In this document: positions 8,713-28,612 of the stretch, in pieces
How positions within the stretch are numbered: the stretch's first letter is position 1
Layout of the letters: the number at the start of each line of letters is the position of its first letter
Origin: Acholeplasma equirhinis
GTDB lineage: Bacteria > Bacillota_I > Bacilli_A > Acholeplasmatales > Acholeplasmataceae
Assembly: GCF_017052655.1 (NCBI RefSeq)
Contig: NZ_JAFIDC010000001.1
Location: 620,001-684,000 of the forward strand
Direction: 5' to 3'
DNA: 64,000 bases
Translations under genes and position numbers: made by a program
The notes under the pieces: model-generated
Seen by the model: only the letters and a program-made list of their open reading frames with translations
What the model was told of the DNA's origin: nothing
Databases searched by the model: none

Positions 8713-8733
8713 GAGATGATTTAATTTAAAAAC

Positions 8734-12073: not shown

Positions 12074-13591
12074 CTATTCTTCAAAAATCTTCATATCATC
12101 TTTAGTTAAGTGCTTTACTTGATACATTGCAATATCTGCTTTATGCATTAAATCTCGTAAATTTTGACCGTGAAGTGGGAATATTGCAGTACCAATCGAT
12201 GCTGTAATTTGAATGCTTTGTTTTTGAATTTTTAATTCTTTTCTTAAAACGCTTGCAACTTTTTGAATTTCAGAGGTCAATTCTTCTTGATATCCTCGAT
12301 AGTGCAGTAATAATACAAATTCATCTCCACCATACCTGGCTGCAAAATTACTTCCAGAAACAAGTGTATTTAATCTTGTTCCTATTTCTTTTAAGATTTC
12401 ATCCCCAGTATCATGACCGTATAGATCATTAAATTGTTTAAAGTCATCTAAATCAATCGTAACAATTGCAAAACTTTCTCTATTTTCCACTTTAGAATTA
12501 AAGTGTTTAATAAATAATCTTCTGTTTGGTAGTTCAGTTAATGAGTCATAATATGCATATCTATCAAGTTTTTCTTTTAACTCATAAATCTCTGTTATAT
12601 CTGTAAGTGAAATGATTTTAAGTGTCTCTTCTAATTGTTGAACGATGGATATGGATAATAATGAATGTAGTATTTCTCCATCGTATCTAAGCACTGGAAC
12701 TTCTTTATTAAAAACATCATGAGGATTTGCATCAAATTGTCGAGTATTCGGTCGATCTTTCACCAAATCAAACATTCGAATTTGTGAATAATGCTTTCCA
12801 ATTAAATCTTTTTTCGAATATCCTAACTCTCTGATAAGTGTTTCATTTACATCAAGTACAATATCAGTTTCTAAATCCATCATCATCATTGAAAGTGGTG
12901 ATTGACTGAAAATCGTTTTAAATTTATTTTGTTCATAAGCCATTTGTTGGAATGATTTATCGTTAATAAGTAAATTTAAATTAATAATCATGATTGTAAA
13001 GATAATGTAATAAATAAGGATAATGTTATAATCGGTACTATTTGCCAAATGATATGTCGAGTTACTATCTGCAAAAAATGCATTAATAATTCTACTTAAC
13101 GCAATAAATGCAAGTGCAAACATAAATGAAGCTGTCATAATAATGCTATGATTAGTTTCTTTCTTACGACTTTTTAACAAGAAAAATGCACCTTTTAATG
13201 AGATTGCTAAATATGCTACATTTAATGCAATTAACGAGAATGTAATATTTATATTAAACGAATTGAAATAAATAATAGAAATAGCTGCTAGTAACATTAA
13301 AATTGATTCTTCATAGTAGTTTGTAAATTTATCAAAGAATCGATTAATTCCAACTAATATTGAGAATAAACCACCTAAGACTAAAATCCCACTGATAGGT
13401 ACAGTGAAGTCTTTTAAATTAGCATCTGAAAATATTGAAATAATGATACCAAGTGTATGTAAAAATACACCTGTGATCCAACTTTTTATCCCTGAGTATT
13501 TTTTACCGACTTTAATATACGATTGAACTAACAATAAACAAGTCGCTATTGCTATTAACAGACAGGTTGCAATGATTGATGTAAAAATCAT
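12074..13591 (-). CDS. Membrane-bound PAS-GGDEF diguanylate cyclase
   Basis: Makes cyclic di-GMP from two GTP. About seven membrane helices fill residues 1-205, a PAS domain follows (about 222-335), then a GGDEF domain (about 345-505) with DSLTELPNR, the metal-binding IDLDDFKQFND, and an intact active site RYGGDEF. The inhibitory I-site RxxD that usually lies five residues before GGDEF is absent (SGSN here), so classical product inhibition is not expected. There is no EAL or HD-GYP domain. Good AGGGAGA site at the start. It is divergent from a c-di-GMP riboswitch about 180 bp away. Confidence 0.93.
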   Translation of the reverse strand: MIFTSIIATCLLIAIATCLLLVQSYIKVGKKYSGIKSWITGVFLHTLGIIISIFSDANLKDFTVPISGILVLGGLFSILVGINRFFDKFTNYYEESILMLLAAISIIYFNSFNINITFSLIALNVAYLAISLKGAFFLLKSRKKETNHSIIMTASFMFALAFIALSRIINAFFADSNSTYHLANSTDYNIILIYYIIFTIMIINLNLLINDKSFQQMAYEQNKFKTIFSQSPLSMMMMDLETDIVLDVNETLIRELGYSKKDLIGKHYSQIRMFDLVKDRPNTRQFDANPHDVFNKEVPVLRYDGEILHSLLSISIVQQLEETLKIISLTDITEIYELKEKLDRYAYYDSLTELPNRRLFIKHFNSKVENRESFAIVTIDLDDFKQFNDLYGHDTGDEILKEIGTRLNTLVSGSNFAARYGGDEFVLLLHYRGYQEELTSEIQKVASVLRKELKIQKQSIQITASIGTAIFPLHGQNLRDLMHKADIAMYQVKHLTKDDMKIFEE

Positions 13592-13686
13592 ATATCTCCC
13601 TTACATGATTTAAATGTGTTAAATTGATTATAGCAAAATATTTCTAATTTCAATGATTTAGATACTATAAAAAAAGAACTCTGTTC

Positions 13687-13753
13687 TTGTTTATAGGGTA
13701 TATGATTGCTATAATGTGTATTTTGCTTTACTTTTAATAGTTTATGATAAAAT
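13687..13753 (+). promoter_or_regulatory. Tandem candidate promoters upstream of c-di-GMP riboswitch 1
   Basis: TTGTTT at 13687-13692 and TATAAT at 13710-13715 are separated by exactly 17 bases. A second possible pair, TTGCTT at 13723 and a TGATAAAAT box near 13746, would start transcription just before the aptamer. Which is used cannot be told. Confidence 0.5.
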
Positions 13754-13770
13754 TATTTAATAAAAACATC

Positions 13771-13840
13771 AATCGGCAAACTTAGGGCAACCTAAGGACG
13801 CAAAGCTATAGGGTCTTTAATTTAAGACAGCCAGTTGCAA
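13771..13840 (+). promoter_or_regulatory. Cyclic-di-GMP-I (GEMM) riboswitch, copy 1
   Basis: The aptamer shows CGGCAAAC, a CTTAGG/CCTAAG stem closed by a GCAA tetraloop, the invariant GGACGCAAAGC, then AGGGTC and the receptor strand AGCCAGTTGC. This is the Firmicute form of the class. The 3' part (AGACAGCCAGTT) is also the 5' arm of the downstream terminator, so ligand binding should prevent termination: an inferred ON switch. It controls the TasA-like and repeat-protein genes that follow. Confidence 0.93.
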
Positions 13841-13872
13841 CTTCTAGTAAGTTAAAACTGCTGTCTTTTTTT
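13825..13872 (+). terminator. Expression-platform terminator of c-di-GMP riboswitch 1
   Basis: AGACAG-CAGTT pairs with AACTG-CTGTCT (one bulged C), with an inner AACTT/AAGTT hairpin, followed by seven T. It overlaps the 3' strand of the aptamer. Confidence 0.85.
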
Positions 13873-13885
13873 GGGGAAAAGTGAC

Positions 13886-14476
13886 ATGAGAGTTAGATTA
13901 CCAATCATTATTTTAATCTTGCTTTGTATATTAGTTGGGGGAACTTCATTTGCATTTTGGACGTATACAAACTTAAATGAAGGTTATTCAATTGAGAATA
14001 ACCGTGTAACTGTAGGTACAGCTAAAGATGCAACAACAACTGTAGATTTTTCATATTTAGGTTCTGCTAATTATAAATTAGTCCCTTTTGGTCGTGCACA
14101 AGATGCAGAACCTGGAGCAGTTGAATATGTTTTATTATCTTATGAAATTAATTGGACGAATGATGAAGATTCAGCCATCATTCCTGAAGGAACCTCGTTT
14201 GATTTAATTGTTCAAATTGACAATGTCACACCGAACAATCAGTTACTTGCATCACTGTTGAATATAAGTTATCAGGTTGGGGGATCAGAACCGATCGGTT
14301 TAACCGGTGAGTCTGTTCTTGATAACTTACAGGGGACAATAGTTATCAATGGTGATGCAGTAATGGTCTATGTTTTAGTTACTCTAACTAATCCAGAATC
14401 AATTAGTGATTACGATCAAATTGTTGGTGAAATTATTATTTTTGATGTTATCTTTACAGTTTCAGAACCATCTTAA
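13886..14476 (+). CDS. Secreted TasA/camelysin-like protein with SipW-type signal peptide
   Basis: The N-terminus is a short basic segment, a hydrophobic core (about residues 5-22) and the SipW-type junction GGTSFAFWTYTN. The mature part is a predicted beta-rich domain of about 170 residues. It shares a segment with the proteins at 26028 and 26573: YKLVPFGRAQDAEPGAVEYV, and a similar C-terminus (GEIIIFDVIFTV). I chose ATG 13886, eight bases after GGGGA; the TTG at 13871 is in the terminator tail. It lies directly behind riboswitch 1 and 12 bp before the repeat protein. The assignment to TasA/camelysin is by signal type and layout, not by search; fibre formation is inference. Confidence 0.75.
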   Translation: MRVRLPIIILILLCILVGGTSFAFWTYTNLNEGYSIENNRVTVGTAKDATTTVDFSYLGSANYKLVPFGRAQDAEPGAVEYVLLSYEINWTNDEDSAIIPEGTSFDLIVQIDNVTPNNQLLASLLNISYQVGGSEPIGLTGESVLDNLQGTIVINGDAVMVYVLVTLTNPESISDYDQIVGEIIIFDVIFTVSEPS

Positions 14477-14488
14477 GGGGAGAGTTTG

Positions 14489-16381
14489 ATGGATAAATTG
14501 AGATTTGATAAATTAAAATCTCTTGTAACAGCACTTGTCATATCGGCATGTATTTTAACGACGTCTGTTTCTTTTGCTTATTGGGTTAATGTCATTAATG
14601 GTGATCAAAATGTTGCAACCAATAATAACATTTCAATTCCTTCTTGGAACTATTTAATTGATGTTCCACCTGAAGGTGTACCAGAATATAACCCAAATGG
14701 TGTGTATCAAGAAGGTGACCTTGTTTGGTATACTGGTGTCATTTATGTTATTAGACATGGTGGTTATCATCAAACGACACCTCCTGGTCAACCTTATGGT
14801 GCATTTAAAGATATTTCAATGTTTTACTTACCTACAAATACATATGATTCTGGTGAAGTTGTTGCATATCAAGGTAACTTCTATCAAGTGACAAATGGTG
14901 GTATCGCAAACGATAGAGCACCAATTATCGGCAAAGGGTGGACAATTTTTAACTTTGCCATTCTAGAATATAATCCAACTTTTGAATACTCATTAAATCA
15001 TTATGTATTTTATGATGATATTATCTACAAAGTTGTCAACGTTGGTGATGCAAAAGATGCAGCAAACCCTACAACATTAAAGGGTTGGGAACGTTATAAC
15101 TTTGGTATAAGATCTTATGATAACTCAATTAAATACACAGTTAATGATGTTGTTGTTTATAATGGAAGTCTTTATTATGTAACAAATGCAACAAATGCAA
15201 GTGCAAACAATCCAGCAACACTCAATGGTTGGGATACATTTAATAAACCAATTTCTGAATACGTTTTAAATAAGAACTATCCGGAGGGTACACTAGTTAA
15301 TTATCAAGGTTATATATATGAAGTAATGGATTTTTATTATAAATCTGCAAGTCCTGCTGGAAATATTAACTGGCAACGTAAAAATGTATATTTCCCTGAA
15401 TATCAAGCAGGCTCTCAATACGATATCAATTCATATGTTAAATACAATGGGCAAGTTTACCGTGCAAAGTGGAATAATAATCAAAATCCATCGAATGCTG
15501 CTTGGGAAGTTGTTAATATTCAACCTTATAATCCAAATACAACATACACTCTAAATCAATTTGTAACATATAATGGTAAATATTACCAAGTTGTTAACGC
15601 TGATAATGCAAACATATCAGCTCCGGGTGAAATGTACAATGCTTGGAACTTAATCGATACGAATGATTATTCACCTACAAATGTATATACTTCAACAAAT
15701 ATTGTTTACCATAATGGCACATACTATAAACCTCAAAATGTAGCTAGAGCTAATCAGTATGAACCGGGTACACAACCTGATTCATGGGTTATGGTTGGTT
15801 CAGATCAATATGATCCATTCAAAACATATCAAGTTGGTAACTATGCAATCTACGAAGGTAGATACTATAAAGTCGTAAATGAAACAAATGCCAATATGTC
15901 AGCACCAGGTGAAATGTATAATGCTTGGAATGAAGTTGGTACTTATGAATATAATCCAACAAATGTTTATCTAGCAGGTGACTTTGTTTATTATGAAAAT
16001 AATCTTTACAGAGTACAAGATGCAGCAAGAGCTAATCAGTTCGTACCTGGCACAGCATATAACGCATGGAATCAAATCAATACCAATGAATGGCGTTGGT
16101 TTAATGTTTATGTTGCGAATGACCATGTTGTTTATAATGCTCGTGTATTTAGAGTACAAAATGTAGCAAACGCGCAACAAACGATACCTGGTTCTATTCC
16201 AAATGCTTGGAATGAAGTTGGTACTTATGCTTATAAGACATTCAATGTGTATTCGCCTGGTAATATTATTGTTTATAAAAATATTGCCTATGAAGCAATC
16301 TTAGGTTCTCAAGGTATTGAGCCAGATGCACTAAATGGTGCAACTTATTGGAAACACTATATTCCTGCAAACCAACAATAA
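14489..16381 (+). CDS. Large secreted protein with twelve carbohydrate-binding-like repeats
   Basis: A SipW-type signal (TTSVSFAYWVNV, residues about 25-36) precedes twelve tandem modules of 44-48 residues filling residues ~65-630. The module pattern is Y.P...Y..GD.V.Y.G..Y.V.N..NA..P.....W, with conserved aromatics, as in chitin-binding CBM5/12 (ChtBD3) modules. The last modules are the most alike (YNAWNEVGT recurs). No enzyme domain, sortase motif or C-terminal membrane anchor is present, so it may bind cells to glycans or cross-link matrix. ATG 14489 lies six bases after GGGGAG. It shares the c-di-GMP-controlled transcript of the upstream gene. Confidence 0.85.
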   Translation: MDKLRFDKLKSLVTALVISACILTTSVSFAYWVNVINGDQNVATNNNISIPSWNYLIDVPPEGVPEYNPNGVYQEGDLVWYTGVIYVIRHGGYHQTTPPGQPYGAFKDISMFYLPTNTYDSGEVVAYQGNFYQVTNGGIANDRAPIIGKGWTIFNFAILEYNPTFEYSLNHYVFYDDIIYKVVNVGDAKDAANPTTLKGWERYNFGIRSYDNSIKYTVNDVVVYNGSLYYVTNATNASANNPATLNGWDTFNKPISEYVLNKNYPEGTLVNYQGYIYEVMDFYYKSASPAGNINWQRKNVYFPEYQAGSQYDINSYVKYNGQVYRAKWNNNQNPSNAAWEVVNIQPYNPNTTYTLNQFVTYNGKYYQVVNADNANISAPGEMYNAWNLIDTNDYSPTNVYTSTNIVYHNGTYYKPQNVARANQYEPGTQPDSWVMVGSDQYDPFKTYQVGNYAIYEGRYYKVVNETNANMSAPGEMYNAWNEVGTYEYNPTNVYLAGDFVYYENNLYRVQDAARANQFVPGTAYNAWNQINTNEWRWFNVYVANDHVVYNARVFRVQNVANAQQTIPGSIPNAWNEVGTYAYKTFNVYSPGNIIVYKNIAYEAILGSQGIEPDALNGATYWKHYIPANQQ

Positions 16382-16386
16382 TATAA

Positions 16387-16420
16387 AACCCTAGTTCAAG
16401 TCGAACTAGGGTTCTTTTAT
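16387..16420 (+). terminator. Intrinsic terminator
   Basis: AACCCTAGTTC pairs perfectly with GAACTAGGGTT around AAGTC, followed by CTTTTATTT; ends the riboswitch-1 operon. Confidence 0.88.
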
Positions 16421-16435
16421 TTAAGTTAACTTTAA

Positions 16436-17413
16436 TTAGATCCAATCACCATTAAAAATTGAATTCTTAACAACGACATAATCAACTTTTCTGATTGCTT
16501 CGATATCTTTACCACCGGCATAAGATATCGATGATTGTAAATCTTCTCTCATTTCCTTTAGGGTATCTTCAATCTTACCTTTATATGGTATTAAAATCTT
16601 TTTACCTTCAACATTGATTCTTTCACCCTTTTGATACTCAGATGCAGAACCAAAGTATTCTTTCATCTTTTCACCATTAATTTCAAGGGTTCTTCCTGGT
16701 GATTCTTCATGACCTGCAAATAAGAATCCAATCATGATCATCGATGCACCAAATCGAATGGATTTTGCAATATCACCATGGGTTCTAATACCACCATCAG
16801 CAATTAATGGTTTTCTAGCAGCTTTTGAACATCTTGATAGTGCAGCTAATTGCCAACCACCTGTACCAAAACCTGTTTTAACTTTTGTAATACATACTTT
16901 ACCAGGTCCAACACCGATTTTAGTCGCATCTGCACCAGCATTTTCAAGCTCACGTACTGCTTCTGGTGTTGCAACATTACCAGCAATTAAGAAACTTTCT
17001 GGTAAATGTTCTTTTATAAAATGAATCATTTCAATGACAGTTTCCGCATGCCCATGCGCAACATCAATAGTAATATAATCAGGTATTAGGTTTAAACGTT
17101 TAAGTTCTAAAACAAAATCATACTCTTTTGGTTTAACACCTACAGAGATTGAAGTATATAATCCTTCTTTAATCATCTCTTGCATGAATGGAATACGTTT
17201 CTCCTCTTCAAAACGATGCATGATGTAAAAATATCCGTTACGAGCTAACCATTTTGCGAGATTTTCATCAATAATGGTTCCCATATTGGCAGGTACTACG
17301 GGTAATTTAAAAGTAACCTTTCCAAACTGAATCGATGTGTCACATTCACTTCTTGATTTCACGATACATTTAGAAGGAATTAACTGTATATCTTCATAAT
17401 CAAATACTTGCAT
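16436..17413 (-). CDS. guaC: GMP reductase
   Basis: Converts GMP to IMP with NADPH, linking guanine to adenine nucleotide supply. The TIM barrel has the catalytic cysteine in [11 protein letters not shown] (about residue 175), [12 protein letters not shown] and the flap SASEYQKGE. At about 325 residues it lacks the CBS pair of IMP dehydrogenase and matches the Gram-positive GMP reductase length. ATG 17413 follows AGGAGAGG by five bases; the upstream in-frame start at 17446 precedes this site and is unlikely. Confidence 0.9.
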
Positions 17414-17487
17414 ATCAACCTCTCCTTTACCTAACAACAAAATCATTATATCTTATGTAAGAAGAGATTACAAAGAAAAAGTAATGC

Positions 17488-18198
17488 TTATTTTTTGAAT
17501 TCAAAAACTGCATAAATTTTTCGTTCTTTATTTAAAAATAAAACAACATATGAATCAGGAGTTTTTTGTGTCACTAATGTCATCTCATCAAACATGACAA
17601 AAGGAAGTTTGTGTTCTGCAAAAAGTCTATTAAATTCAAACTCAAGTGGAAGTTGATTTACTGCAAACTCTATATAAAAAGCATTGTTTAAATGTTGAAA
17701 ATAATCTATATGAGATGGTTGAACTGTAATTTTTACTTCTTTTACAAATTCAAACTCACGATTCAAATCAATTTTTCTTCCAACAAAATTCATTTCGTAT
17801 TTGTGATGTTCACCAATACCTTTTAATTGTTCTTCTGACATTCTATAAGGTTTTAATGTATCAAGATTTATAAAAGATCCTAAACTATACGATTCGATCA
17901 ATGGCTTACCATATTCATCATATATAATTGTATTTCTGTAACCATAAAATGCATTAGTTTCCGTTGGAAACGAATGAATCTCTAATTGGTCTTTATATTT
18001 TGGCCATCTTTTAATTTCAACATATCTAAAATTAAGTACAATTGAATAATCTGCTTTTTCAGTAGCAAAATCTGTTTTAGTTACTTTTTCAATATCTTTC
18101 CCTTCAACATCTTGAATAAGATTAATTAAATCGCTTGGTCTGATTTTAAAGTTATATCCAATTTCAGATGTTTGAATCGTTCTTTTTTCTATTGTCAT
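17488..18198 (-). CDS. Acyl-ACP thioesterase
   Basis: Releases free fatty acids from acyl-carrier protein. Two hot-dog halves are visible: an N-terminal one with EIGYNFKIRPSDLINLIQD and a second with PSHIDYFQHLNNAFYIEFA, whose HLNNAFY matches the N/H substrate loop of the FatA/bacterial TE family. About 236 residues, normal for bacterial members. ATG 18198 lies shortly after AGGTGAT. It stands alone on its strand. Fits an organism that makes its own fatty acids and membrane lipids; chain length preference cannot be read. Confidence 0.87.
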   Translation of the reverse strand: MTIEKRTIQTSEIGYNFKIRPSDLINLIQDVEGKDIEKVTKTDFATEKADYSIVLNFRYVEIKRWPKYKDQLEIHSFPTETNAFYGYRNTIIYDEYGKPLIESYSLGSFINLDTLKPYRMSEEQLKGIGEHHKYEMNFVGRKIDLNREFEFVKEVKITVQPSHIDYFQHLNNAFYIEFAVNQLPLEFEFNRLFAEHKLPFVMFDEMTLVTQKTPDSYVVLFLNKERKIYAVFEFKK

Positions 18199-18305
18199 AA
18201 TATCACCTATGTTTTCATTATAGTTAAAATATTTGATTTTCTCAAATAAAGGGTATTTAAGTTTTATCATTTTATGATACGATATTTATAGGCAAGGTGA
18301 ATATA

Positions 18306-18677
18306 ATGAATTTTTTACTTAAGTTAATTTTAAATCGTTTTATACTATCGATATTAATTATCTTTTTATTTGCACTTGATTTTAAGTTCTTAACAATCAG
18401 TCCTTTAAGATATTATTCTTTAAATCAACCAGAAGTTGCAGCAACTGAATATTATGAAGTTGAACTTGGAGCAGCTAAAATATATGTATACATTTCTTAT
18501 GATGGTTCTAATATTCACTTAGTTCCAACGGATAATTTACCAGATGGTACAACAATAGAAAATCCAACAATGGTTGCATGGTACTACTATGGATTAGCAC
18601 TTGCACTTGCGAATATTATCCCATGGAAATGGTTTACAAAATCGGATAAACCCAAAGATAAAAAGAAGAAAAAATAA
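18306..18677 (+). CDS. Small membrane protein, function unknown
   Basis: The product is about 123 residues. Helix one is at about 3-27; a short outer segment contains NQPEVAATEYYEVELGAAK; a second hydrophobic stretch near 90-108 precedes a lysine-rich tail (KPKDKKKKK). The ATG at 18306 is five bases after AGGTGA; a GTG at 18297 overlaps that site. No family recognised. Confidence 0.6.
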   Translation: MNFLLKLILNRFILSILIIFLFALDFKFLTISPLRYYSLNQPEVAATEYYEVELGAAKIYVYISYDGSNIHLVPTDNLPDGTTIENPTMVAWYYYGLALALANIIPWKWFTKSDKPKDKKKKK

Positions 18678-18703
18678 CTGAACATAACGTGTTCAGTTTT
18701 TCT
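18676..18703 (+). terminator. Intrinsic terminator
   Basis: ACTGAACA and TGTTCAGT pair around TAACG, followed by TTTTCTTT. Confidence 0.82.
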
Positions 18704-18802
18704 TTATTAAAGCACTTTAATTTATTTTGATATTCAAATGGTTTATAATTAAGTTAAAGAGCAATAACTTTCAAATAAATCAAAAAGGGGAGGTTTATTA
18801 TT

Positions 18803-19495
18803 TTGAAAAGTCTTTTGTCTACGCTTAAAAGTTTCGCAGAATCCCAATTAGGGCTTGTAGTTGTTATCGTGATGGCTGTGATCCAACTTTCATTGTTTAA
18901 CGCATTACTTACAATGAATTTCACATTTAATGTCTCGGTATTAGGTGGTTGGTTATCAACACTTGTCGTTGGATTTGCAATTATTTGGGCACAATGGAAG
19001 GGTAAAGTACTTCTATCGCATTTACTTTTAGCATTATTATTTGCTGATGCTTTAAGAAATTTTGTAGTTGCATTAATTGGTTTGAACTTTGGTGCGGCAT
19101 TTGATTTACAACTATTACTATCACTTGTATCATTCTTATATACAGGTTTAGTCGTACTTGCTGAATTAATGCTCGGTAAAACAACAGCTGCTAAAATTCA
19201 AAAGGAAGATTTATTACCTCTTGCGATTTTCGCTGCAGCAGTTTACTTTAGTGCAGGTTGGTCATTAGTCTTACTTTCATTAATTCCTGTTGTCATTGCA
19301 CTTCTACTTGGTTCAAGAGTTGTTGCATTCTTATTTGCAGCAGCTACTGCACTTGGTTCAACCTTAGGTTATGTAAATGCAATCATGGTAGATGCTACTA
19401 TGCTTTCAAATTACTTATTATTAGCTTTATTTATTGTAGCACTGATATTCTTAGTGATGCCTTTAATGAAAGCTATTCAAAACCAAGAAGCTTAA
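18803..19495 (+). CDS. Polytopic membrane protein, function unknown
   Basis: A 230-residue protein made of about seven membrane helices with very short loops, such as VVVIVMAVIQLSLFNALL and LLLALFIVALIFLVMPLM. A cytosolic-looking loop near 125-135 (LGKTTAAKIQKEDL) resembles no nucleotide-binding motif I can defend. TTG start at 18803, nine bases after AGGGGAGG. It is monocistronic, between two terminators. No family assigned. Confidence 0.65.
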   Translation: MKSLLSTLKSFAESQLGLVVVIVMAVIQLSLFNALLTMNFTFNVSVLGGWLSTLVVGFAIIWAQWKGKVLLSHLLLALLFADALRNFVVALIGLNFGAAFDLQLLLSLVSFLYTGLVVLAELMLGKTTAAKIQKEDLLPLAIFAAAVYFSAGWSLVLLSLIPVVIALLLGSRVVAFLFAAATALGSTLGYVNAIMVDATMLSNYLLLALFIVALIFLVMPLMKAIQNQEA

Positions 19496-19506
19496 TTATT
19501 TCAAAA

Positions 19507-19541
19507 TAAAAAGAAACCACCTGTCAAAAGGTGGTTTTTTT
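19507..19541. terminator. Bidirectional intrinsic terminator
   Basis: AAACCACCT pairs with AGGTGGTTT around GTCAAA, with A-rich and T-rich flanks; serves converging genes. Confidence 0.85.
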
Positions 19542-20514
19542 AATCGATAAGTTCATATTTAACTTTTGGTAAGTCTTTGATAGATTTTGCTCCAATTATG
19601 ATCATAATCTTCTTTAAATCGTTAACGAATTCTTCTACGCGTTTGATAGCTTCATCAAATTCTAAGAACGTTAAATCTAAAAAGCATCTAGAAAGTCCAA
19701 CAGCTTTCGCACCAAGTATCAATGCCTTAATGACATCGAGTGGATTTCTTACACCACCTGATGCATAAATTGATACATCATCATCTTTTTCTAGTTTCAT
19801 AAGAATTTCTGCAGTATCTAAATTAAATTCATTTAGATAATCATATGATTTACCACTTCTTGCTTCTTCAATCTTAAGAAAAGATGTGCCACCACTGCCA
19901 GCAACATCAATGTGTTTAATGCCTAATCTCTTAAGTTTTGAAATAGTTGATAAAGATAAACCCATACCAACTTCTTTAACAATTAAAGGTACATCAATAA
20001 CATCTTTAATTTTTTTAATATTCTCAGTCCAATCAGAAAAATCTCTATCACCTTCTGGCATCACAAGTTCTTGAATCACATTTAAGTGTATAGAAAGTGC
20101 ATTTGCAGAAATTAAGTTGATTGCTTCAAGTGCTTGTGAAACTGAAGCATTTGCATTTAAATTTGAAACAACAATACCTTGATGATTTTTTCTAATAATT
20201 TCAAATGAAGGTTTAGATGCTTCATCTTTGAAAATGATTGATTGACTACCAGTTACCATTGGTAAATTAAAGTGATTTGCTAGACGTGATAAAAATTCAT
20301 TAATACGATGTCCATTTGCTGAACCACCTGTCATTGCATTAATATAAATTGGATAAGGCACTTTATATCCAAGGAACTCGGTATTTAATTCAATTTGATC
20401 CATGGATAAATCAGGAAGGTCTAATGCTTCTAATCTTATTTTATCGAATGCATTTTTCTTAACTTCCTGTTTTAAAGCAAGTTCAATATGTTCGTCTTTT
20501 CTATTTTTGCTCAT
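19540..20514 (-). CDS. fni: Type 2 isopentenyl-diphosphate isomerase
   Basis: FMN-dependent isomerase interconverting IPP and DMAPP, the last step of the mevalonate route. It begins MSKNRKDEHIELAL, with the family's RK..H. N-terminus; then YINAMTGGS, VVSNLNANAS, KEVGMGLS, VDVAGSGGTSF and the flavin phosphate loop SGGVRNPLD. Length ~324 residues. The ATG at 20514 sits four bases after GGGAG and overlaps the end of mvaK2 by 14 bases. Confidence 0.94.
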   Translation of the reverse strand: MSKNRKDEHIELALKQEVKKNAFDKIRLEALDLPDLSMDQIELNTEFLGYKVPYPIYINAMTGGSANGHRINEFLSRLANHFNLPMVTGSQSIIFKDEASKPSFEIIRKNHQGIVVSNLNANASVSQALEAINLISANALSIHLNVIQELVMPEGDRDFSDWTENIKKIKDVIDVPLIVKEVGMGLSLSTISKLKRLGIKHIDVAGSGGTSFLKIEEARSGKSYDYLNEFNLDTAEILMKLEKDDDVSIYASGGVRNPLDVIKALILGAKAVGLSRCFLDLTFLEFDEAIKRVEEFVNDLKKIMIIIGAKSIKDLPKVKYELID

Positions 20515-21547
20515 TATACTCCCAAACATTTAATTCAAGTGGTGTTAAACCAGCTTTAAACCAAGCATCTTGAACTAATATTCTTTGATTTTTATTTTGT
20601 GCAATCGCGAATCCACAATCACCAAATCCTGCTCCAGATGTTTTTGCAGGTAAACCATAATCTGATGCAATTTGCATCATCTTTTTAAATGGGCTTGATT
20701 CTATGATAATACCACTTTTAGATTGTAAATCAAGTAATTGGTCTCGATACATTTCAAGCATATATTTAGTCGTGAAATAATCATTTCTTACTAGTGCTTC
20801 TTTAAACTGTGTAACAATGAGTTTAGTTTTGTTTAAGAATGTTGCATACCAAGGTGATTGATTAATTGTTTGCATCTTGCCAACCATCTGTGAAGTTGAT
20901 TGAGATATTCCACTGTAACAAATTGCGAGTTCAAACGGTGGTTTAGGTAATCGAGTAATTTTTAAGAATGGCCAAGTTAAAGTCATAACCTCATCTAATT
21001 TCCCCTTATGATTCATCACCCAAATCAAATCATAACGTGTATAGTGTACCCACCCACCAAAGATTGATGCTGCAAGTTCTCCACCTGATGAAATATCATT
21101 AATTTCAATTTGAGCAAGTACTGCTAATTTAAATAAGTCTAATTTTTTTATTTTAACGTTGTGATAATCTAAAATACCTTTAATTACAGATACAACAACT
21201 GCACCTGATGAACCCAAACCATATTTTTGATTTTCTTCTGTTGTTAATTCAGATGATAAATTAATTGAATAGACTTTAGGTTCCACTTGTTTATAATTTA
21301 AATATAAATGAGCAACATAAACTGCAGCTTTTGCATGTGTTAATGTATCATATACAAATACTGGAAGTTTATCTGATAACATCCATTTAAAATGACCTAG
21401 TTCAGAAGAAAATTCATAAGTTTTTGATGCATCAACTGTGACATTAATAAACTTATCAACTGCAACTAAAACCGCTTCATTACCAGGTTTAAGTACAGAA
21501 TATTCACCAATAATATATAGTTTTCCCGGTACTTTAAGAGAAATCAT
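20501..21547 (-). CDS. mvaK2: Phosphomevalonate kinase
   Basis: A GHMP kinase that phosphorylates mevalonate 5-phosphate. N-terminal VPGKLYIIGEYSVL, the ATP loop GLGSSGAVVVSVIKG (about residue 108) and the C-terminal KTSGAGFGDCGFAI are diagnostic for the bacterial ERG8-like type. Length 348 residues. It has a 4-base overlap with mvaD in the mevalonate operon. Confidence 0.93.
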   Translation of the reverse strand: MISLKVPGKLYIIGEYSVLKPGNEAVLVAVDKFINVTVDASKTYEFSSELGHFKWMLSDKLPVFVYDTLTHAKAAVYVAHLYLNYKQVEPKVYSINLSSELTTEENQKYGLGSSGAVVVSVIKGILDYHNVKIKKLDLFKLAVLAQIEINDISSGGELAASIFGGWVHYTRYDLIWVMNHKGKLDEVMTLTWPFLKITRLPKPPFELAICYSGISQSTSQMVGKMQTINQSPWYATFLNKTKLIVTQFKEALVRNDYFTTKYMLEMYRDQLLDLQSKSGIIIESSPFKKMMQIASDYGLPAKTSGAGFGDCGFAIAQNKNQRILVQDAWFKAGLTPLELNVWEYNEQK

Positions 21548-22491
21548 AAAAGATGCACTCCTTTACCTTCATAACAAACAACGACATGGCAAATCTTTTC
21601 ATAATAACTTATAACGTCTTTGATATTTTCTTTTTTAACGATAATTTTCACATTTGGACCTGCATCCATGGTAGCATAAACTTTGTGTCCTTGACTACGT
21701 AACCATTTAGTCAAATCTAAAATTTCATGACTTGTTTCATTTAAATACTTCACACCAGTTTTAGAAATCAGTTCATGCATCAAAGTTGCATGAAGTTCAG
21801 CAGTTTTCCCCATTGCTTCAAAATCAACTTGATTAATTGCAAATACCATGTCATTTAGTAACATATTAGTTTTTGAAATCCAATCTGATTTTAATTCAGG
21901 AAATTCTTCTAATACATTCATTGCAGATCGTGAATCAATCTTTTTCTCTCTTTGATCGACCATACAAATTAACATAGCCATATCTGAAAAACCTTTGATA
22001 GGTTCAGCAAAACTTGTTATATGATCATAACCTTCATGCCAAATTGAAAATCCATCATAAATGGAACGAGCAGCTGAACCTGAACCAAATCTTGCAAGTG
22101 CAGATAGTGCTTTAGGTTCTAAGTGAATGTCATAACTTTCCGTTGCAGCAAGCGCAAGTGCTGCAAAAGCTGATGAGCTTGATGCAATACCAGCTTTTTT
22201 AGGTACATAATTGTAAGAAATAATTTCAGCAAAATAAGGGATATTGTATAGATGTCTTACCATATCCATAAAAGTTTTTACACGCTCAAGTTCAGGACCA
22301 GTAATAAATTTATCATCAATATAAAGATGATCTTCTGTTAATAAAGGTTTATATTCAACTGAAGTTTTTGTATAAAATTTATCCACAGTAAAACTTAAAG
22401 ATGAAGTTAATGGTAAGTTCCATTTTTTATCTTTTTTTCCCCAATATTTAATTAAAGCAATATTTACATGTGCTTTAGCTGTTTTCTTCAT
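21544..22491 (-). CDS. mvaD: Diphosphomevalonate decarboxylase
   Basis: ATP-dependent decarboxylation to isopentenyl diphosphate. Signature residues are in the N-terminal AHVNIALIKYWGKKD, PLTSSLSFTVD, the catalytic loop GIASSSSAFAALALAA (about 120), GSGSAARS (about 150), and MDAGPNVK near the C-terminus. 315 residues. The start overlaps mvaK1 by 17 bases. Confidence 0.95.
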   Translation of the reverse strand: MKKTAKAHVNIALIKYWGKKDKKWNLPLTSSLSFTVDKFYTKTSVEYKPLLTEDHLYIDDKFITGPELERVKTFMDMVRHLYNIPYFAEIISYNYVPKKAGIASSSSAFAALALAATESYDIHLEPKALSALARFGSGSAARSIYDGFSIWHEGYDHITSFAEPIKGFSDMAMLICMVDQREKKIDSRSAMNVLEEFPELKSDWISKTNMLLNDMVFAINQVDFEAMGKTAELHATLMHELISKTGVKYLNETSHEILDLTKWLRSQGHKVYATMDAGPNVKIIVKKENIKDVISYYEKICHVVVCYEGKGVHLL

Positions 22492-23428
22492 GAATAATTT
22501 CCTTTAAATCATAGAACCAAGTTGTCACTGCACCACTTGCTTTTAACGCTTCTGAAATGATAACAGCTTGTTCTGTATTTTTGGCAAGAGCAATCATACA
22601 ACCCCCCTTTCCACCACCAGTTAGTTTAGCTCCTAATGCACCAGATTTAATTGCAACATCAACTAATTCTTCTAACTTTTCATCTGAGACATGGATACTT
22701 CTTAAAAGTTGATGTGCTTCGGTCATAGCTAAACCTAAACGTATCACTTCGTTATTCTCTAAATAAGTTTTAACTTCTTTTGTTAATTCTTCTAATCGAT
22801 CAATTATTGGGTTAACAACGGTAGGATTTTCATTCCAAAGTTTTCTAACCTCTGTCACAGCTTCTTTTGTTAAACCCTCTTTACCTGTATCTGCTACAAC
22901 AATAACAGCATCCATTTGTAAAGGAATAATACTTTTACCTAAATCCTTTTGGTAAAAAACAGCTTTACCTGTTGTAATTGTTGAAGCATCTAATCCGCTT
23001 GGATTCACATGATAAATTTGTTCTGCTAAATCAACAAAATGATTTAATTGATCTATTGTCAAATCAACCTCAAATGCATCAAATAAACTTCTTACAACTG
23101 CAATCGAAACAGCTGCTGAAGAACCTAATCCCCTTTGAGAAGGCAAATTTGAATCTATTTTAATATGAAATCCATTTAGTGGTTGTTTTAAATAATCGAG
23201 TACAAGTTTAATAAGTTCTTTAATACCGAATAAATTGTCTGGTGCATCTTCTAAAAAACCTTGAAAATAAATACAATCAATGGTGATAGGTTTATCAGTT
23301 TTATAAATTTTAGAAGTGATTTGTACTTGCGTAAATGGTAAAGCGATTGCCGGTTTACCATAAACAACTGAATGTTCTCCCATCAAAATGATCTTCCCGC
23401 TTGCAACCCCTTGTCCAAAATCCACCAT
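22475..23428 (-). CDS. mvaK1: Mevalonate kinase
   Basis: First kinase of the lower mevalonate pathway and first gene of the operon. GHMP motifs are GKIILMGEHSVVYGKPAI, PSQRGLGSSAAVSIA (about residue 90) with a catalytic Asp in NPSGLDASTI, and AKLTGGGKGGCMIAL near the C-terminus. 317 residues. HMG-CoA synthase and reductase, which make its substrate, are not in this window. Confidence 0.94.
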   Translation of the reverse strand: MVDFGQGVASGKIILMGEHSVVYGKPAIALPFTQVQITSKIYKTDKPITIDCIYFQGFLEDAPDNLFGIKELIKLVLDYLKQPLNGFHIKIDSNLPSQRGLGSSAAVSIAVVRSLFDAFEVDLTIDQLNHFVDLAEQIYHVNPSGLDASTITTGKAVFYQKDLGKSIIPLQMDAVIVVADTGKEGLTKEAVTEVRKLWNENPTVVNPIIDRLEELTKEVKTYLENNEVIRLGLAMTEAHQLLRSIHVSDEKLEELVDVAIKSGALGAKLTGGGKGGCMIALAKNTEQAVIISEALKASGAVTTWFYDLKEIIHEENS

Positions 23429-23506
23429 AAATTTCGCTCGCTTTCTATAATCATTATATCATAATATGATACAATGAAAATATCCAATAAAGGAAAGGTA
23501 TTTATC

Positions 23507-24010
23507 ATGTCAAAACTATTATTACAACTATCTGTCAAAGACTTTGGAACAATGAAAATTGAACTGTATCCAGAAATTGCTCCAAATACAGTTTCTAATT
23601 TTGTTTCATATGTTAAACAAGGTTTTTATGACGGAAAAATCTTCCATCGCATCATTAAAGGATTTATGATCCAAGGTGGAGGTTCAATGGATGAAAAACA
23701 ACCAATTAAAGGTGAATTTTCTAGAAATGGATTTAAAAATGAATTAAAGCATGAAAAAGGTGTCATCTCTATGGCAAGAACACAAGATCCAAATTCTGCA
23801 ACTTCACAATTCTTTATCATGCATAAATCTGCACCACACTTAGATGGTAGTTATGCTGGATTCGGAAAAGTTATTGAAGGCTTAGATGTCATTGATAAGA
23901 TTGCTACAGTACAAACGAATCATTTTGATTCACCAATTTCACCTGTTGTCATCGAAAAATTTGAAATTTTAGAAAATACATATACACTTCAACCTGTTCA
24001 ATACGTATGA
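23507..24010 (+). CDS. Cyclophilin-type peptidyl-prolyl isomerase
   Basis: Catalyses cis-trans isomerisation of proline bonds. The cyclophilin core is complete: FHRIIKGFMIQGG (catalytic Arg), MARTQDPNSATSQFFIM, and GSYAGFGKVIEGLDV. There is no signal peptide, so it is cytosolic. About 167 residues. Start ATG 23507 is seven bases after AAAGGAAAGG; the upstream in-frame ATG at 23474 precedes this site. Its stop overlaps the psuK start (ATGA), an unusual pairing. Confidence 0.93.
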   Translation: MSKLLLQLSVKDFGTMKIELYPEIAPNTVSNFVSYVKQGFYDGKIFHRIIKGFMIQGGGSMDEKQPIKGEFSRNGFKNELKHEKGVISMARTQDPNSATSQFFIMHKSAPHLDGSYAGFGKVIEGLDVIDKIATVQTNHFDSPISPVVIEKFEILENTYTLQPVQYV

Positions 24011-24885
24011 AGCAAATTGTAGTTATCGGTGCAACCACGATTGATTTTCTTGCCAATATGCATCAATCGCATACGATGTATGATTCTAATCCTGGATTTA
24101 TTTATAAGTCTTGGGGTGGTGTTGCAAGAAATATTGCAGAAAATCTAGCAAGACTTGACTTAAATCCTACATTGATTACTGTATTAGGTGAAGATTCAAG
24201 AGATTTTTTAAATATGTCACGTGACATAAATTTAAAAGTTTTATATCAAAATGTACCTCAAACTGCAAGTTATATTGCGATACATGATGAAACTGGAAGT
24301 TTAGTCACTGCTGTTTCTTCTATGGAACAACTCTCAAAATTGACCCCACAACTGATCAAAAAGCATCATGACATTATATACGCAGCTGACATTGTAGTTC
24401 TTGATGCAAATATTCCAGAAAAAACTTTAGACTATATTATGACTGCTTATCAAAAACCATTTTATGTAGATTTAGTAAGTAGTGCTAAAGCACACAAGTT
24501 TATCCCTTATTTAAATAAAATTCATACAATTAAAATAAATATCATTGAAGGAAAAAAAATAACGATGTTTGAAGATCCTATTCAAATTGGTCAAATTTTA
24601 ATCAATAAAGGTATAAAGAATGTTTATTTAACAATGGGCAAACTCGGTGCTTACCATTTTAGTGATGAAGTAACAAACTTCTATCATAAATCATACGAGG
24701 GTAGAATGATTAATGATACAGGATGTGGTGATGCATTTTTTTCTGGAGTAATCTATGCAGAGATCAATAAATTAGATCCACTAAAAACTGGAACAATTAT
24801 GTCACATTTTACGCTACAATCTAGAGATTCAGTCTATAAAAAACTTAAACCAAATCAAGTGATTTCACTTGTAAAGGAGAAATAA
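24007..24885 (+). CDS. psuK: Pseudouridine kinase (PfkB family)
   Basis: A ribokinase-like sugar kinase: N-terminal [26 protein letters not shown] (substrate-binding GG..N), LGEDSRD, and the anion-hole and base motif [13 protein letters not shown] near residue 237. Adjacent PsuG (one base gap) identifies the substrate as pseudouridine, giving pseudouridine 5'-phosphate. 292 residues. By itself the sequence would fit several PfkB sugar kinases; context decides. Confidence 0.87.
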
Positions 24886-24886
24886 A

Positions 24887-25801
24887 ATGAATCAATATAT
24901 AGATTTTGCACCTGAGGTATTAGATGCACTTAAACTTGGTAAACCAGTTGTCGCATTAGAATCAACAATAATTTCGCATGGTATGCCATATCCAAGAAAT
25001 GTTGAAGTCGGAATGACGCTTGAAAAAATCATTAAAAACCAAGGTGCTACACCTGCAACAATCGCTATTTTAGATGGCAGAATTAAAGTTGGATTAACAC
25101 CAACTGAACTCACTAAATTAAGTCAACTTAAAAATGTAATGAAGGTTTCAAAAAGAGACATTCCTTATTGTATTGCAAAGGGTTATAATGGCGCAACTAC
25201 GGTATCTGCTACCATTTTAGTTGCAGCTATGGCAGGTATCAAAGTGTTTGCAACAGGTGGTATTGGTGGTGTTCATAGAAAAGGTCAAGAAACATTTGAT
25301 ATTTCACGCGATTTAGAGGAACTTGCAAATGAAAATGTTTGTGTTGTTTCCGCTGGGTGTAAATCTATTTTAGACATCGGATTAACATTAGAATATTTAG
25401 AAACCAAAGGTGTTCCTGTAGTAGGTTATAAATCAGATGAGTTCCCAGCATTTTATACAAAAAAAAGTGGATTTAGACTTGAATATCAATTAGATTCAGC
25501 AGATGAAATTGCAACACTATTAAAAACTAAATGGTCACTTCCACTACCAGGTGGTGTCTTAATTGCAAACCCAATTCCAGATATCTACTCACTCGATCCA
25601 GAATTCATAAATAATGAAATTGAAAAAGCACTTCTCTCAGCAGAACGTGATGATATAAAGGGTAAACAAATTACACCTTATCTACTAAGTAAAATTGAAC
25701 AATCAACCAAAGGTATTTCCTTAGATTCAAATATACAACTTGTCTATAACAATGCCAAACTTGCTGCAGATATTGCAATTGAACTTTCTAAATTATACTA
25801 A
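24887..25801 (+). CDS. psuG: Pseudouridine-5'-phosphate glycosidase
   Basis: Cleaves the C-C glycosidic bond to give uracil and ribose 5-phosphate. Family signatures: [17 protein letters not shown] (about residue 23), [21 protein letters not shown] with catalytic Lys, [11 protein letters not shown], and [14 protein letters not shown]. 304 residues, normal length. It has a good AAAGGAG site inside the psuK end. With psuK it recycles pseudouridine from RNA turnover. Confidence 0.95.
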
Positions 25802-25837
25802 TTAGAATCATTTTATAAACAGCATTTAGCATTTTGT

Positions 25838-25866
25838 TTGCATATCAAAGTATTTTTTATTATAAT
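25838..25866 (+). promoter_or_regulatory. Promoter of c-di-GMP riboswitch 2
   Basis: TTGCAT at 25838-25843 and TATAAT at 25861-25866, spaced by exactly 17 bases, with the aptamer starting about 25 bases later. Confidence 0.75.
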
Positions 25867-25892
25867 ATTAGCAATTATGAATTTAAGCATAT

Positions 25893-25966
25893 CTTATCGG
25901 CAAACTTAGGGTAACCTAAGGACGCAAAGCTATAGGGTCCTGATTTTACAGTGGCAGCCAGTTGCA
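25893..25966 (+). promoter_or_regulatory. Cyclic-di-GMP-I (GEMM) riboswitch, copy 2
   Basis: The core at 25897-25939 matches copy 1 (13773-13815) at 42 of 43 positions; the single change is in the tetraloop (GTAA for GCAA). GGACGCAAAGC and the receptor strand AGCCAGTTGC are intact, while the P2 arm between them differs in sequence. The 3' strand again lies within the terminator 5' arm, indicating ON control of the secreted proteins at 26028 and 26573. Confidence 0.93.
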
Positions 25967-26003
25967 AATCAAAACTTTTGATTTCAAGGGCTGCTTTTTC
26001 TTT
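25954..26003 (+). terminator. Expression-platform terminator of c-di-GMP riboswitch 2
   Basis: GCAGCC pairs with GGCTGC, enclosing a strong AAATCAAAA/TTTTGATTT stem, followed by TTTTTCTTT. It shares the GCAGCCAGTTGC strand with the aptamer. Confidence 0.87.
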
Positions 26004-26027
26004 CGTAACGGCTATGGGGGCATAGGT

Positions 26028-26543
26028 ATGAATAAAAGATTGAGTATAACATTACTCATTGTACTTGTTATCGCAATCATATATACAGTATCTGTTTCAT
26101 TTTCATATTGGGCTGCGCTAGACCATTATGCAAATGTATATATATCAATTGATACATTACATGAAGCAGAATTATCTGTAAATCTTAAAGAAGATGAATC
26201 AAATTTTAATAAAAAACTTGTCCCTCAAGGTTTTGTAAAAAATTCAGATGAAGTTGATGAAATACACTTCATCTTCGAACTTGACTTAACCGGTGATGAA
26301 TTACTACCAGGTGTTGAGCTTGGATTAACCATCACAGCCATAAATGTTTTGTTAGATGGAACTGATCAATATAACTACTTAGTTGTTATTGAACTTCCAA
26401 ATAACGGCAATCTCTTAATCTCGAATGAAGTTCTCGTAGTAGTTGTCAAGGTTAGACTTCTTGAACCAGCGACAAGTGAGATTGCTACTGCAATCATGGG
26501 TAAAAATATCACCTTTGATTTGCACTTTAGGGTTGTTTCTTAA
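26028..26543 (+). CDS. Secreted TasA/camelysin-like protein with SipW-type signal peptide
   Basis: A 171-residue protein. Hydrophobic signal at about 6-24 and junction SVSFSYWAALD. The mature part resembles the proteins at 26573 and 13886: KKLVPQGFVKNSDEVDEIHF aligns with their LVP.G block, and it ends in GKNITFDLHFRVV. The ATG at 26028 is seven bases after GGGGG; the in-frame TTG at 25962 lies in the riboswitch. It is the first gene after riboswitch 2, 29 bp before its paralogue. It may be a minor or initiator subunit (TapA-like) by analogy only. Confidence 0.72.
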   Translation: MNKRLSITLLIVLVIAIIYTVSVSFSYWAALDHYANVYISIDTLHEAELSVNLKEDESNFNKKLVPQGFVKNSDEVDEIHFIFELDLTGDELLPGVELGLTITAINVLLDGTDQYNYLVVIELPNNGNLLISNEVLVVVVKVRLLEPATSEIATAIMGKNITFDLHFRVVS

Positions 26544-26572
26544 TTTTAAGAATAAAAAAGGGAGAGTATATA

Positions 26573-27172
26573 ATGAAAAAGAATCAAAAATTAATGCTAG
26601 CAGTCTTATTCTTACTAGCAGTTGTATCCTTAGGGATTTCTTATGCATATTGGGCTTCAATTGAATTAGAAGCAGATGTTGATGGTAATGTTGTTACAAT
26701 CGGTACTGGTCGTATTTCAGAAGTTAGTGCTTCTGCTCTTGGTCAAACTGACGGTGTATTAGTACCTGCTGGTCAAGCAGCTAATTCATTAGAAGATGAT
26801 GCTGTTGAATATGTAATGTTTAAATTCCAAGTTGTTTGGGAATCAAATGATGCAGATTCAGAAAAAACTGGTGTTGTAACTGTTGCTTTTGACGATCTTG
26901 AAATTGATCATCCTCTCAGTTCAATCTTAGTTGATTACGTATCACTTTCTTACCAAATTGGTGGTACACATGATGATGGTACATTTAACGGTGATGGTGA
27001 TTATGCTATCGAAGGAAACGGTGGTGCAGTTACTGTTTGGGTTAAAGTTGTTCTATTAGAACCTATGGAAAATTTACCAGGAGTTACTAAAGAAAATGCT
27101 GAAGATTATGCTAAAGCATTATTCGGTTCAGAAATTACATTCACAGTATTATTTACAGTTATTGAAGACTAA
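26573..27172 (+). CDS. Secreted TasA/camelysin-like protein, possible matrix-fibre subunit
   Basis: A 199-residue, acidic, glycine- and valine-rich protein. Signal MKKNQKLMLAVLFLLAVVSL then GISYAYWASIELEADVDGN, the clearest SipW-type junction in the window. The LVPAGQAANSLEDDAVEYVM block and FGSEITFTVLFTVIED end are shared with the two paralogues. A strong GGGAGAG site precedes it. It is followed at once by a terminator, as expected for the abundant product of a short operon. Fibre assembly is inference from TasA; sequence identity to TasA was not measured. Confidence 0.75.
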   Translation: MKKNQKLMLAVLFLLAVVSLGISYAYWASIELEADVDGNVVTIGTGRISEVSASALGQTDGVLVPAGQAANSLEDDAVEYVMFKFQVVWESNDADSEKTGVVTVAFDDLEIDHPLSSILVDYVSLSYQIGGTHDDGTFNGDGDYAIEGNGGAVTVWVKVVLLEPMENLPGVTKENAEDYAKALFGSEITFTVLFTVIED

Positions 27173-27190
27173 TTAAAGAGAATTTGAATA

Positions 27191-27214
27191 AAGTGGTCTC
27201 TAGACCACTTTTTC
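27191..27214 (+). terminator. Intrinsic terminator
   Basis: AAGTGGTC and GACCACTT pair around TCTA, followed by TTT; separates the secreted-protein operon from the SipW-like pair. Confidence 0.83.
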
Positions 27215-27290
27215 AATTCATATAAAAATATAAAATTATGCTAAAATAATGATAAAGATATACTTTACCATTATAAATAGGGGTATTTAC

Positions 27291-27818
27291 ATGGCGGAAA
27301 AGTTAGATTCAAATAAATTAATAAGTATCATCCTATACAGCATTATAGGTCTTTTAGGTTTATTCATTGTCTTCGTCTTATATTTCCCATTTGTAACAAT
27401 GAATTTATTCGGATTTGCAATATATGGTGGATTCAGTGGTGTAGATGCTTCTTTAGATAGAGGTGATGCATTAATTGTTACACTCGATGATTTTGAAACT
27501 TTAGATAATACTAAACTAATTGTTTTTGAACTCGATGGTTACGGTAGTGCAGATGGTCTTAAAGTCTATAAGATCATGACTGAAGTTGTAGCTACAGAAA
27601 AAACTTATCGTGTACATAGTTCAGGTTCTGCAATATCCTATCAATGGGATATTACTGAAGATATGTATTTAGGTACTGTTAAATCTAAATTACCTGCATT
27701 AGGTTATATTATTGGATTCTTAAGAAGTCCAATTGGTGTAACTGTGATTCTTATTAATGTCATATTAATAACAACAGCTGTCATCTTGGTTAAAAAATTA
27801 AAACCACAATCAAAATAA
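27291..27818 (+). CDS. SipW-like membrane protein, signal-peptidase fold, catalytic Ser not evident
   Basis: One helix near each end (about residues 10-35 and 148-168) flanks a beta-rich outer domain, the layout of SipW/archaeal-type signal peptidases. SGVDASLDRGDALIV occupies the place of the usual SGSMEP..KRGD box, with glycine where the nucleophilic serine should be. LGYIIGFLRSPIGV matches the family's C-terminal helix entry. The His-Arg dyad motif is not visible. ATG 27291 follows AGGGG by eight bases. It may be a divergent or inactive paralogue, a chaperone for SipW-type substrates, or unrelated. Confidence 0.5.
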   Translation: MAEKLDSNKLISIILYSIIGLLGLFIVFVLYFPFVTMNLFGFAIYGGFSGVDASLDRGDALIVTLDDFETLDNTKLIVFELDGYGSADGLKVYKIMTEVVATEKTYRVHSSGSAISYQWDITEDMYLGTVKSKLPALGYIIGFLRSPIGVTVILINVILITTAVILVKKLKPQSK

Positions 27819-27839
27819 TTTTTTTAATAGGGGCTAAGA

Positions 27840-28424
27840 ATGAAATCCATTAGAGCACTACTTTTAGTATTTTCTGTGCTATTTTTTATGGTTGAAATAT
27901 TCTTGGTTGTTATGATTTTATTAGGACCACAGAATGAATATCTCTTCTACTCGTATAATCATATTCAAGCAGTTCCATTCAACCAACCCATCGTTAATAA
28001 TACAGTTCAAGTCGGTATCGGTAAAATGGTACCTTTTAATGTTGATGATTTAGAACCTGGAGATTATGTTGTTGCACATAATAATATCAATTTAGACTAC
28101 ATGTGGGTTCATCGTGTGATATCTATTGATACTAATAATGAAACAATCACACTTTCAGTTAATGATCTCCTTGGCACATATGAGATGAGGTATGATGAAA
28201 TAAGTGGTAACTATATTGGAGATTCTAATCTACTTGAACAACTTCTCTTTATTTCTACAGATCCTTGGATATTCTTTTTAAATGTCGGTGCTGCTATATC
28301 ACTTACAATCTTTTTAAGTTTATGGACAATCCATGGTTATCGTAAATTTAGAGACTCTGGTCATGATGACCAAAATAATTCGGCAACAAAAAATTACAAA
28401 TTGGAAGATTTTGTGAAACTTTAA
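27840..28424 (+). CDS. SipW-like membrane protein retaining the VHRV motif
   Basis: A 194-residue protein with helices at about 8-30 and 143-165. Between them LEPGDYVVAHNN and YMWVHRVISID match the second half of the signal peptidase I core (GD.V.F...THRV), including the His used by ER/SipW-type enzymes. The SGSMEP nucleophile box is not recognisable in the preceding PFNQPIVNNTVQVGIGKMVP segment. It follows its paralogue by 21 bp with a GGGG site. Likely to belong to the secreted-protein system nearby; whether it cleaves anything is open. Confidence 0.5.
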   Translation: MKSIRALLLVFSVLFFMVEIFLVVMILLGPQNEYLFYSYNHIQAVPFNQPIVNNTVQVGIGKMVPFNVDDLEPGDYVVAHNNINLDYMWVHRVISIDTNNETITLSVNDLLGTYEMRYDEISGNYIGDSNLLEQLLFISTDPWIFFLNVGAAISLTIFLSLWTIHGYRKFRDSGHDDQNNSATKNYKLEDFVKL

Positions 28425-28465
28425 TATTTTTATATTTAAATTAAAAAATATGATAAAATACTTTT

Positions 28466-28556: not shown

Positions 28557-28598
28557 AGACCTGAAAAAATGGTTTTGAAGGTCTTTATTTATTTTTTA
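28549..28598 (+). terminator. Manganese-riboswitch terminator
   Basis: GACCTTCAAGACC pairs with GGTTTTGAAGGTC (one G-U pair) around a nine-base loop, followed by a T-rich stretch ending in six T. Confidence 0.9.
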
Positions 28599-28612
28599 CC
28601 GGAGGAAAAGAA

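Follow-up and report, generated by a model that had tools for sequence, protein, structure and literature searches.

The window analyzed here, a 64,000-nucleotide stretch of the genome of the wall-less bacterium Acholeplasma equirhinis, contains two operons that we interpret as members of a cyclic di-GMP (c-di-GMP) regulon driving the production of SipW-processed, TasA-like surface proteins; to this explanation as a whole, we assign a probability of about 0.72. Five c-di-GMP-I riboswitches are found in the genome (1.45 Mb in 7 contigs, examined by targeted searches and in selected stretches), and all of them head SipW-type operons or a degenerate relative of these. Direct products of the computation are the parts of the system, the overlap of terminators with aptamers, the association of riboswitches with SipW-type signals across the family, the ancestry of the operon, and the loss of active-site residues from two peptidase-like proteins.

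From these results we infer the ligand, the direction of control, the processing of the products and their function in fibres or adhesion, in the form of a simple mechanism. Under this mechanism, diguanylate cyclases (ten GGDEF proteins, one of them encoded next to a window operon) would raise the level of c-di-GMP, which would bind the leader aptamers and retain the 3' strand that otherwise is used for the terminator. Transcription would then continue into the genes for TasA-like exported proteins and a carbohydrate-binding protein. The products would be cut by SipW-type peptidases encoded elsewhere, chiefly in a core locus with two c-di-GMP riboswitches of its own, along with an orphaned operon member beside ung, and most likely form surface fibres or a matrix by which the wall-less cell adheres to polysaccharide surfaces.

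Riboswitch leaders and the genes they precede

Both aptamers of the window lie on the forward strand, at 13765..13842 (61.0 bits against Rfam RF01051) and 25889..25969 (62.0 bits), well above the gathering cut-off of 35 bits and with an E-value of about 1e-9 over the whole window, so that the two c-di-GMP-I riboswitches proposed in an earlier sequence-only reading are confirmed. The elements GGCAAA, CGCAAAG and GTTGC occur in both, their equivalence being given by alignment to Vc2 and to the Rfam consensus. The predicted ligand-contact bases, which we take to be G20, A47 and C92 in Vc2 numbering, were judged present in both aptamers; G20 distinguishes binders of c-di-GMP from binders of cyclic GMP-AMP (cGAMP).

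Each leader also contains an intrinsic terminator that reuses the aptamer. The first (13824..13871, forward strand) takes the 3' strand of aptamer 1 as its 5' arm (AAGACAGC...GCTGTCTT followed by a T-run; −20.3 kcal/mol, z −3.0), and the second (25953..25997, forward strand) overlaps the 3' strand of aptamer 2 (GGCAGCC...GGGCTGC and a T-run; −19.4 kcal/mol, z −3.5). Because aptamer and terminator are mutually exclusive in both leaders, c-di-GMP is probably an ON signal for the window genes, as had been proposed. When leaders were placed by Rfam coordinates, the 5' arm of the terminator fell within the aptamer in 26 of the 33 riboswitches examined in the family, including both in the window. 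A simpler count of stems gave an overlap in 20 of 32 leaders, compared to about 2 when the sequences were shuffled plainly and about 5 (at most 10) when the shuffling preserved the T-run. Exchanging downstream regions among loci proved useless as a control, given that all of them carry the complement of the conserved aptamer strand.

The genes behind these leaders, all on the forward strand, encode exported proteins. The first leader precedes secA1 (13886..14476), an open reading frame paralogous to secB2 and homologous to secB2 of the relatives, followed by a gene (14489..16381) for a protein with eight repeats of the carbohydrate-binding module (CBM) CBM5/12 (Pfam PF02839, E 2e-28), the orthologue of the third operon gene in relatives, and by a terminator (16387..16413). 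The second leader precedes secB1 (26028..26543), which is 25-35% identical to the first operon gene of relatives, and secB2 (26573..27172). In all four proteins, the hydrophobic N-terminal segment is closed by a common motif (SFAFW in secA1, SFAYW in the CBM protein, SFSYW in secB1 and SYAYW in secB2), and we designate these signals SipW-type on the strength of this motif and the gene context. secB1 is a homologue of secB2 (probability 99%), and neither protein matches a Pfam family. The AlphaFold model of secB2 (mean pLDDT 83) retrieved TasA (5of1 and 5of2) at ranks 1-3 among 350,542 PDB chains, which hints that this protein might be TasA-like, albeit not a proven TasA. A role of the exported proteins at the surface or in a matrix is suggested by their export, the predicted fold, the CBM repeats and the known uses of c-di-GMP.

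The second operon continues with two genes for membrane proteins described earlier as SipW-like, psSip1 (27291..27818, forward strand) and psSip2 (27840..28424, forward strand). The homology holds when traced through relatives: the Sip1 family, in which 20 of the 22 aligned members match Pfam Peptidase_S26 (psSip1 of the window is unmatched), is recovered by psSip2 in a profile comparison (probability 97%, E 9e-12). The implied peptidase role does not hold. In the alignment, the catalytic sites of psSip1 read SGVDASLDRGD and VYKI, with both Ser and His gone, whereas most Sip1 relatives retain S-M and H (T and Y in one lineage). The Ser-Met motif is also missing from psSip2 in 21 of 21 aligned sequences, and because it is missing in all of them from a homologue of the Sip1 family, we consider psSip2 a conserved pseudo-enzyme rather than debris. 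Both proteins were therefore rejected as processing peptidases of the window substrates. A search with a pseudo-peptidase model returned mostly SH3/Tudor-like folds and a single LexA-fold (lambda repressor C-terminal domain, rank 5), which is too weak to use. Apparently active SipW peptidases are encoded elsewhere in the genome, at C1:150006-150704, C1:154072-154683, C1:785865-787157 and C2:93285-93995. A strong terminator (27187..27218, forward strand; −17 kcal/mol, z −4.2) parts the end of secB2 at 27172 from psSip1 and psSip2; its position 3' of secB2 is kept in many relatives, and the peptidase-like genes may therefore be transcribed less strongly or start from a different promoter.

The cyclase gene (12074..13591) lies on the reverse strand, divergent from the first riboswitch operon, and encodes a complete PAS-GGDEF protein, as had been claimed, with a multi-pass membrane N-terminus (Pfam GGDEF 148 bits, PAS_9 33 bits), an intact YGGDEF motif and, by eye, no RxxD inhibitory site. 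The further suggestion that the cyclase is encoded beside its own target did not hold up as a conserved arrangement when the positions of orthologues were checked: in four riboswitch-bearing congeners, the orthologue is located on another contig or some 200 kb away. GGDEF or EAL genes adjoin riboswitch operons at several other loci (L024, L078-L081 and L084), none of them corresponding to the window cyclase. In total, the genome yields ten GGDEF and four EAL matches. No PilZ protein was found in the genome, and the riboswitches therefore are the main recognizable readers of c-di-GMP; an MshEN domain occurs at L196 (G000:C1:36718-36975), within an open frame of 558 residues. The genome also contains no penicillin-binding transpeptidase, which the same search detected in 10 of 14 control genomes, in support of the view that the bacterium is wall-less.

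Operon ancestry and the core locus

Riboswitches of the c-di-GMP-I class are present in 46 of the 88 genomes of the family and in none of the 29 small-genome species of one genus, probably the phytoplasmas. A SipW-type signal occurs in the first or second gene at 70 of the 80 riboswitch loci whose downstream sequence was long enough, as judged by a fixed criterion, and at four others by eye; the same criterion picks 5 of 140 background open reading frames, two of the five being from a core locus. The 80 loci share descent and hence do not count as independent events. Among the exceptions are the GLUG-like secreted proteins at L048 and L053 and a type IV prepilin-like gene (GFTLVELI) directly behind the riboswitch at L158. 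At L077 (G004) and L083 (G006), one riboswitch each lies near a gene for a giant exported protein that exceeds 2,200 residues.

In about 20 genomes, including those of Peloplasma aerotolerans, Tenericutes bacterium MO-XQ and the Mycoplasmatota strains zrk2 and zrk7, a single operon next to ung comprises a riboswitch and the genes for secB1, secB2, the CBM protein, Sip1, psSip2 and Sip3, although some members are not seen in every genome, nor is the riboswitch pattern seen in all. The window holds two pieces of this arrangement, riboswitch-secA1-CBM and riboswitch-secB1-secB2-psSip1-psSip2; Sip3, which is missing from the window, sits before ung on another contig (L029). This comparison indicates that one ancestral operon was split to give the two window loci. 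The earlier claim that the two separated loci belong together is supported by this single operon with one riboswitch, and the proposed check for the same arrangement in related genomes succeeded for the operon but not for the adjacent cyclase.

The main site of the system lies outside the window, at C1:143-158 kb (within L024, G000:C1:138001-158000). The sequence-only reading was correct with respect to the parts but incomplete in that it did not cover this chief locus. In order, it comprises two EAL proteins, a riboswitch, a membrane protein, two exported proteins of the SipW type and a SipW (S-M ... HR), then a membrane-anchored AAA protein (McrB-like, N-R-D), a DUF2357 protein and another SipW, and lastly the second riboswitch and two exported proteins, the last of which is weakly similar to CBM5/12. 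Both SipW proteins (L024:12006-12704 and 16072-16683) contain the S-M ... H motif and exceed the cut-off of TIGR02228 (52.7 and 61.7 bits against 51.85). The EAL proteins (L024:5284-9044) are directly upstream of the core riboswitch, and the second, which has DLSTTD in place of DDFGTG, may be non-enzymatic and act as a receptor of c-di-GMP. The second riboswitch of the locus (L002; L052 in the congener G004, which also carries the core locus) lacks a terminator of the kind described above and is located about 20 nucleotides upstream of the start codon; it could work at the level of translation. Two to four c-di-GMP-I aptamers stand in tandem before the core operon at L038, L054, L056, L061, L062 and other loci.

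The DUF2357 protein was recognized with an E-value of 4e-10 and its AAA partner weakly as AAA_5 (E 0.07); the N-R-D motif, a hydrophobic N-terminus and SipW neighbors were all seen. By these sequence features, the pair and its signal peptidases agree with CoCoPALM, in which an McrB-like NxD GTPase with a TM/coiled-coil region has an McrC-like DUF2357 partner. CoCoPALM was announced, without further description, as McrBC-like systems associated with signal peptidases (PMC11090510). Of 395 genomes sampled from the whole class, 134 encode the core GTPase, and a c-di-GMP-I riboswitch lies within 10 kb of it in 34 of the 45 cases checked, compared to 1.7 expected by chance; outside the order, the proximity was observed in 14 of 19 cases.

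Of the remaining loci in the genome, a 163-residue secB1 relative with a degenerate signal motif is encoded behind the fifth riboswitch. Another SipW locus, which lacks a c-di-GMP riboswitch and encodes five exported proteins of the Y/F-A-I/L-F type, occupies positions 6686-11168 of L028 (G000:C1:778001-795000).

Known systems and alternative explanations

In Bacillus, SipW and TasA build an amyloid-like matrix under the control of SinR rather than of a c-di-GMP riboswitch. The present system resembles TasA-SipW(-TapA) of Bacillus subtilis in its SipW-type signals, the location of peptidases near substrates and a possibly TasA-like predicted fold of secB2, and differs from it in the wall-less host, the riboswitch instead of SinR, the additional CBM protein, the dead peptidase paralogues and the lack of detected sequence similarity to TasA. 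Leaders that sense c-di-GMP precede surface-protein genes in other bacteria as well: in Vibrio cholerae, Vc1 lies before gbpA, which encodes a chitin-binding surface protein (PMC3971182), and in Clostridioides difficile such riboswitches lead surface protein and pilus genes (PMC8470499). Unlike in those organisms, the targets here are SipW-type operons, which in many genera account for almost all of the riboswitch regulon. The core locus shares with CoCoPALM the transmembrane AAA protein with N-R-D, the DUF2357 protein and two signal peptidases, but the part of the source describing CoCoPALM gives no c-di-GMP link, in contrast to the riboswitch proximity reported above. The literature searched, which excluded most subscription journals, yielded neither such a link nor a description of a regulon of this kind in Mollicutes, consistent with the novelty claimed earlier. 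The placement of c-di-GMP riboswitches before surface proteins is thus known, and the coupling to secretion of the SipW/TasA type in wall-less bacteria appears to be new.

Several results weigh against our interpretation. The NCBIfam model of the SipW signal, TIGR04088, matches none of the four window proteins and matches weakly in 2 of 29 and 4 of 11 relatives; of the earlier claim that four SipW-type proteins are encoded directly behind the riboswitches, the position stood, with two pairs following directly, and the signal type gained no backing from this model. Profile searches of the PDB returned nothing for secB1 and secB2, with no sequence match to TasA, and the resemblance of the secB2 model to TasA is marginal (TM 0.31-0.35, E 1e-3 to 7e-3). 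Two of the five riboswitches in the genome lack a clear overlapping terminator (weak at L001, none at L002), and the MshEN protein at C1:36718 is another possible reader of c-di-GMP.

Three other explanations use the same parts. The window loci could be decaying, perhaps non-functional leftovers, considering that the operon is split, Ser and His are lost from Sip1, the processing gene is displaced, and in the rest of the genus riboswitches occur at the core locus or at giant proteins while the window operon was not seen there. However, the aptamers, the terminators, the four exported reading frames and the signal motifs are all intact, Sip3 is still present elsewhere, and psSip2 is devoid of the catalytic Ser in all relatives too and hence did not lose it by decay, so that we regard this possibility as unlikely. 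We consider it similarly improbable that the exported proteins build, or act together with, a pilus-like machine rather than TasA-like fibres. The GTPase/DUF2357 pair and its signal peptidases do fit CoCoPALM, for whose loci 'pilus assembly factors' have been suggested, a prepilin-like gene follows one riboswitch of the family and the genome encodes an MshEN protein; yet the window signals lack the prepilin motif, and secB2 is predicted to be a beta-sandwich, with TasA at the head of its fold list. Finally, c-di-GMP could switch these genes OFF, as at the flgB leader of Clostridioides difficile, both polarities being known among c-di-GMP riboswitches (PMC8470499). At L048 and L053, where an aptamer precedes a GLUG-like exported protein, the terminator lies downstream, outside the aptamer, and could pair with its GTTGCAA, so that OFF switches are possible there. 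In both window leaders and in most of those surveyed, by contrast, the terminator is built from the 3' strand of the aptamer and should be blocked by the ligand, which makes OFF control of the window genes very unlikely.

A regulon of exported surface proteins would give c-di-GMP signaling its first plausible job in organisms where it lacks a described target. Acholeplasma laidlawii was reported in 2008 to encode 14 GGDEF/EAL proteins, with none in other mycoplasmas (PMC2408644), and we found no targets of these proteins in the literature searched. Dozens of related species share this wiring, which is conserved across the order and beyond, and the purpose of c-di-GMP in wall-less cells becomes directly testable in a culturable laboratory species. 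The findings also link the little-described CoCoPALM pair with the export of surface proteins and not with phage defence. A broader and distinctly tentative proposal, which we hold to be doubtful, is that the core GTPase/DUF2357 pair is a c-di-GMP-switched membrane machine, not a restriction system, which builds TasA-like fibres together with live and dead SipW peptidases and represents the chief c-di-GMP output of wall-less and related Bacilli.

Two further elements were noted in the window. A structured leader at 28460-28600, with GGGGAGTAG and GAGACC elements and a terminator, precedes a gene for a P-type cation ATPase; it resembles the yybP-ykoY (Mn2+) leader, but Rfam gives no match. At 8565-8715, a lysine riboswitch precedes a diaminopimelate decarboxylase-like gene in this wall-less host.

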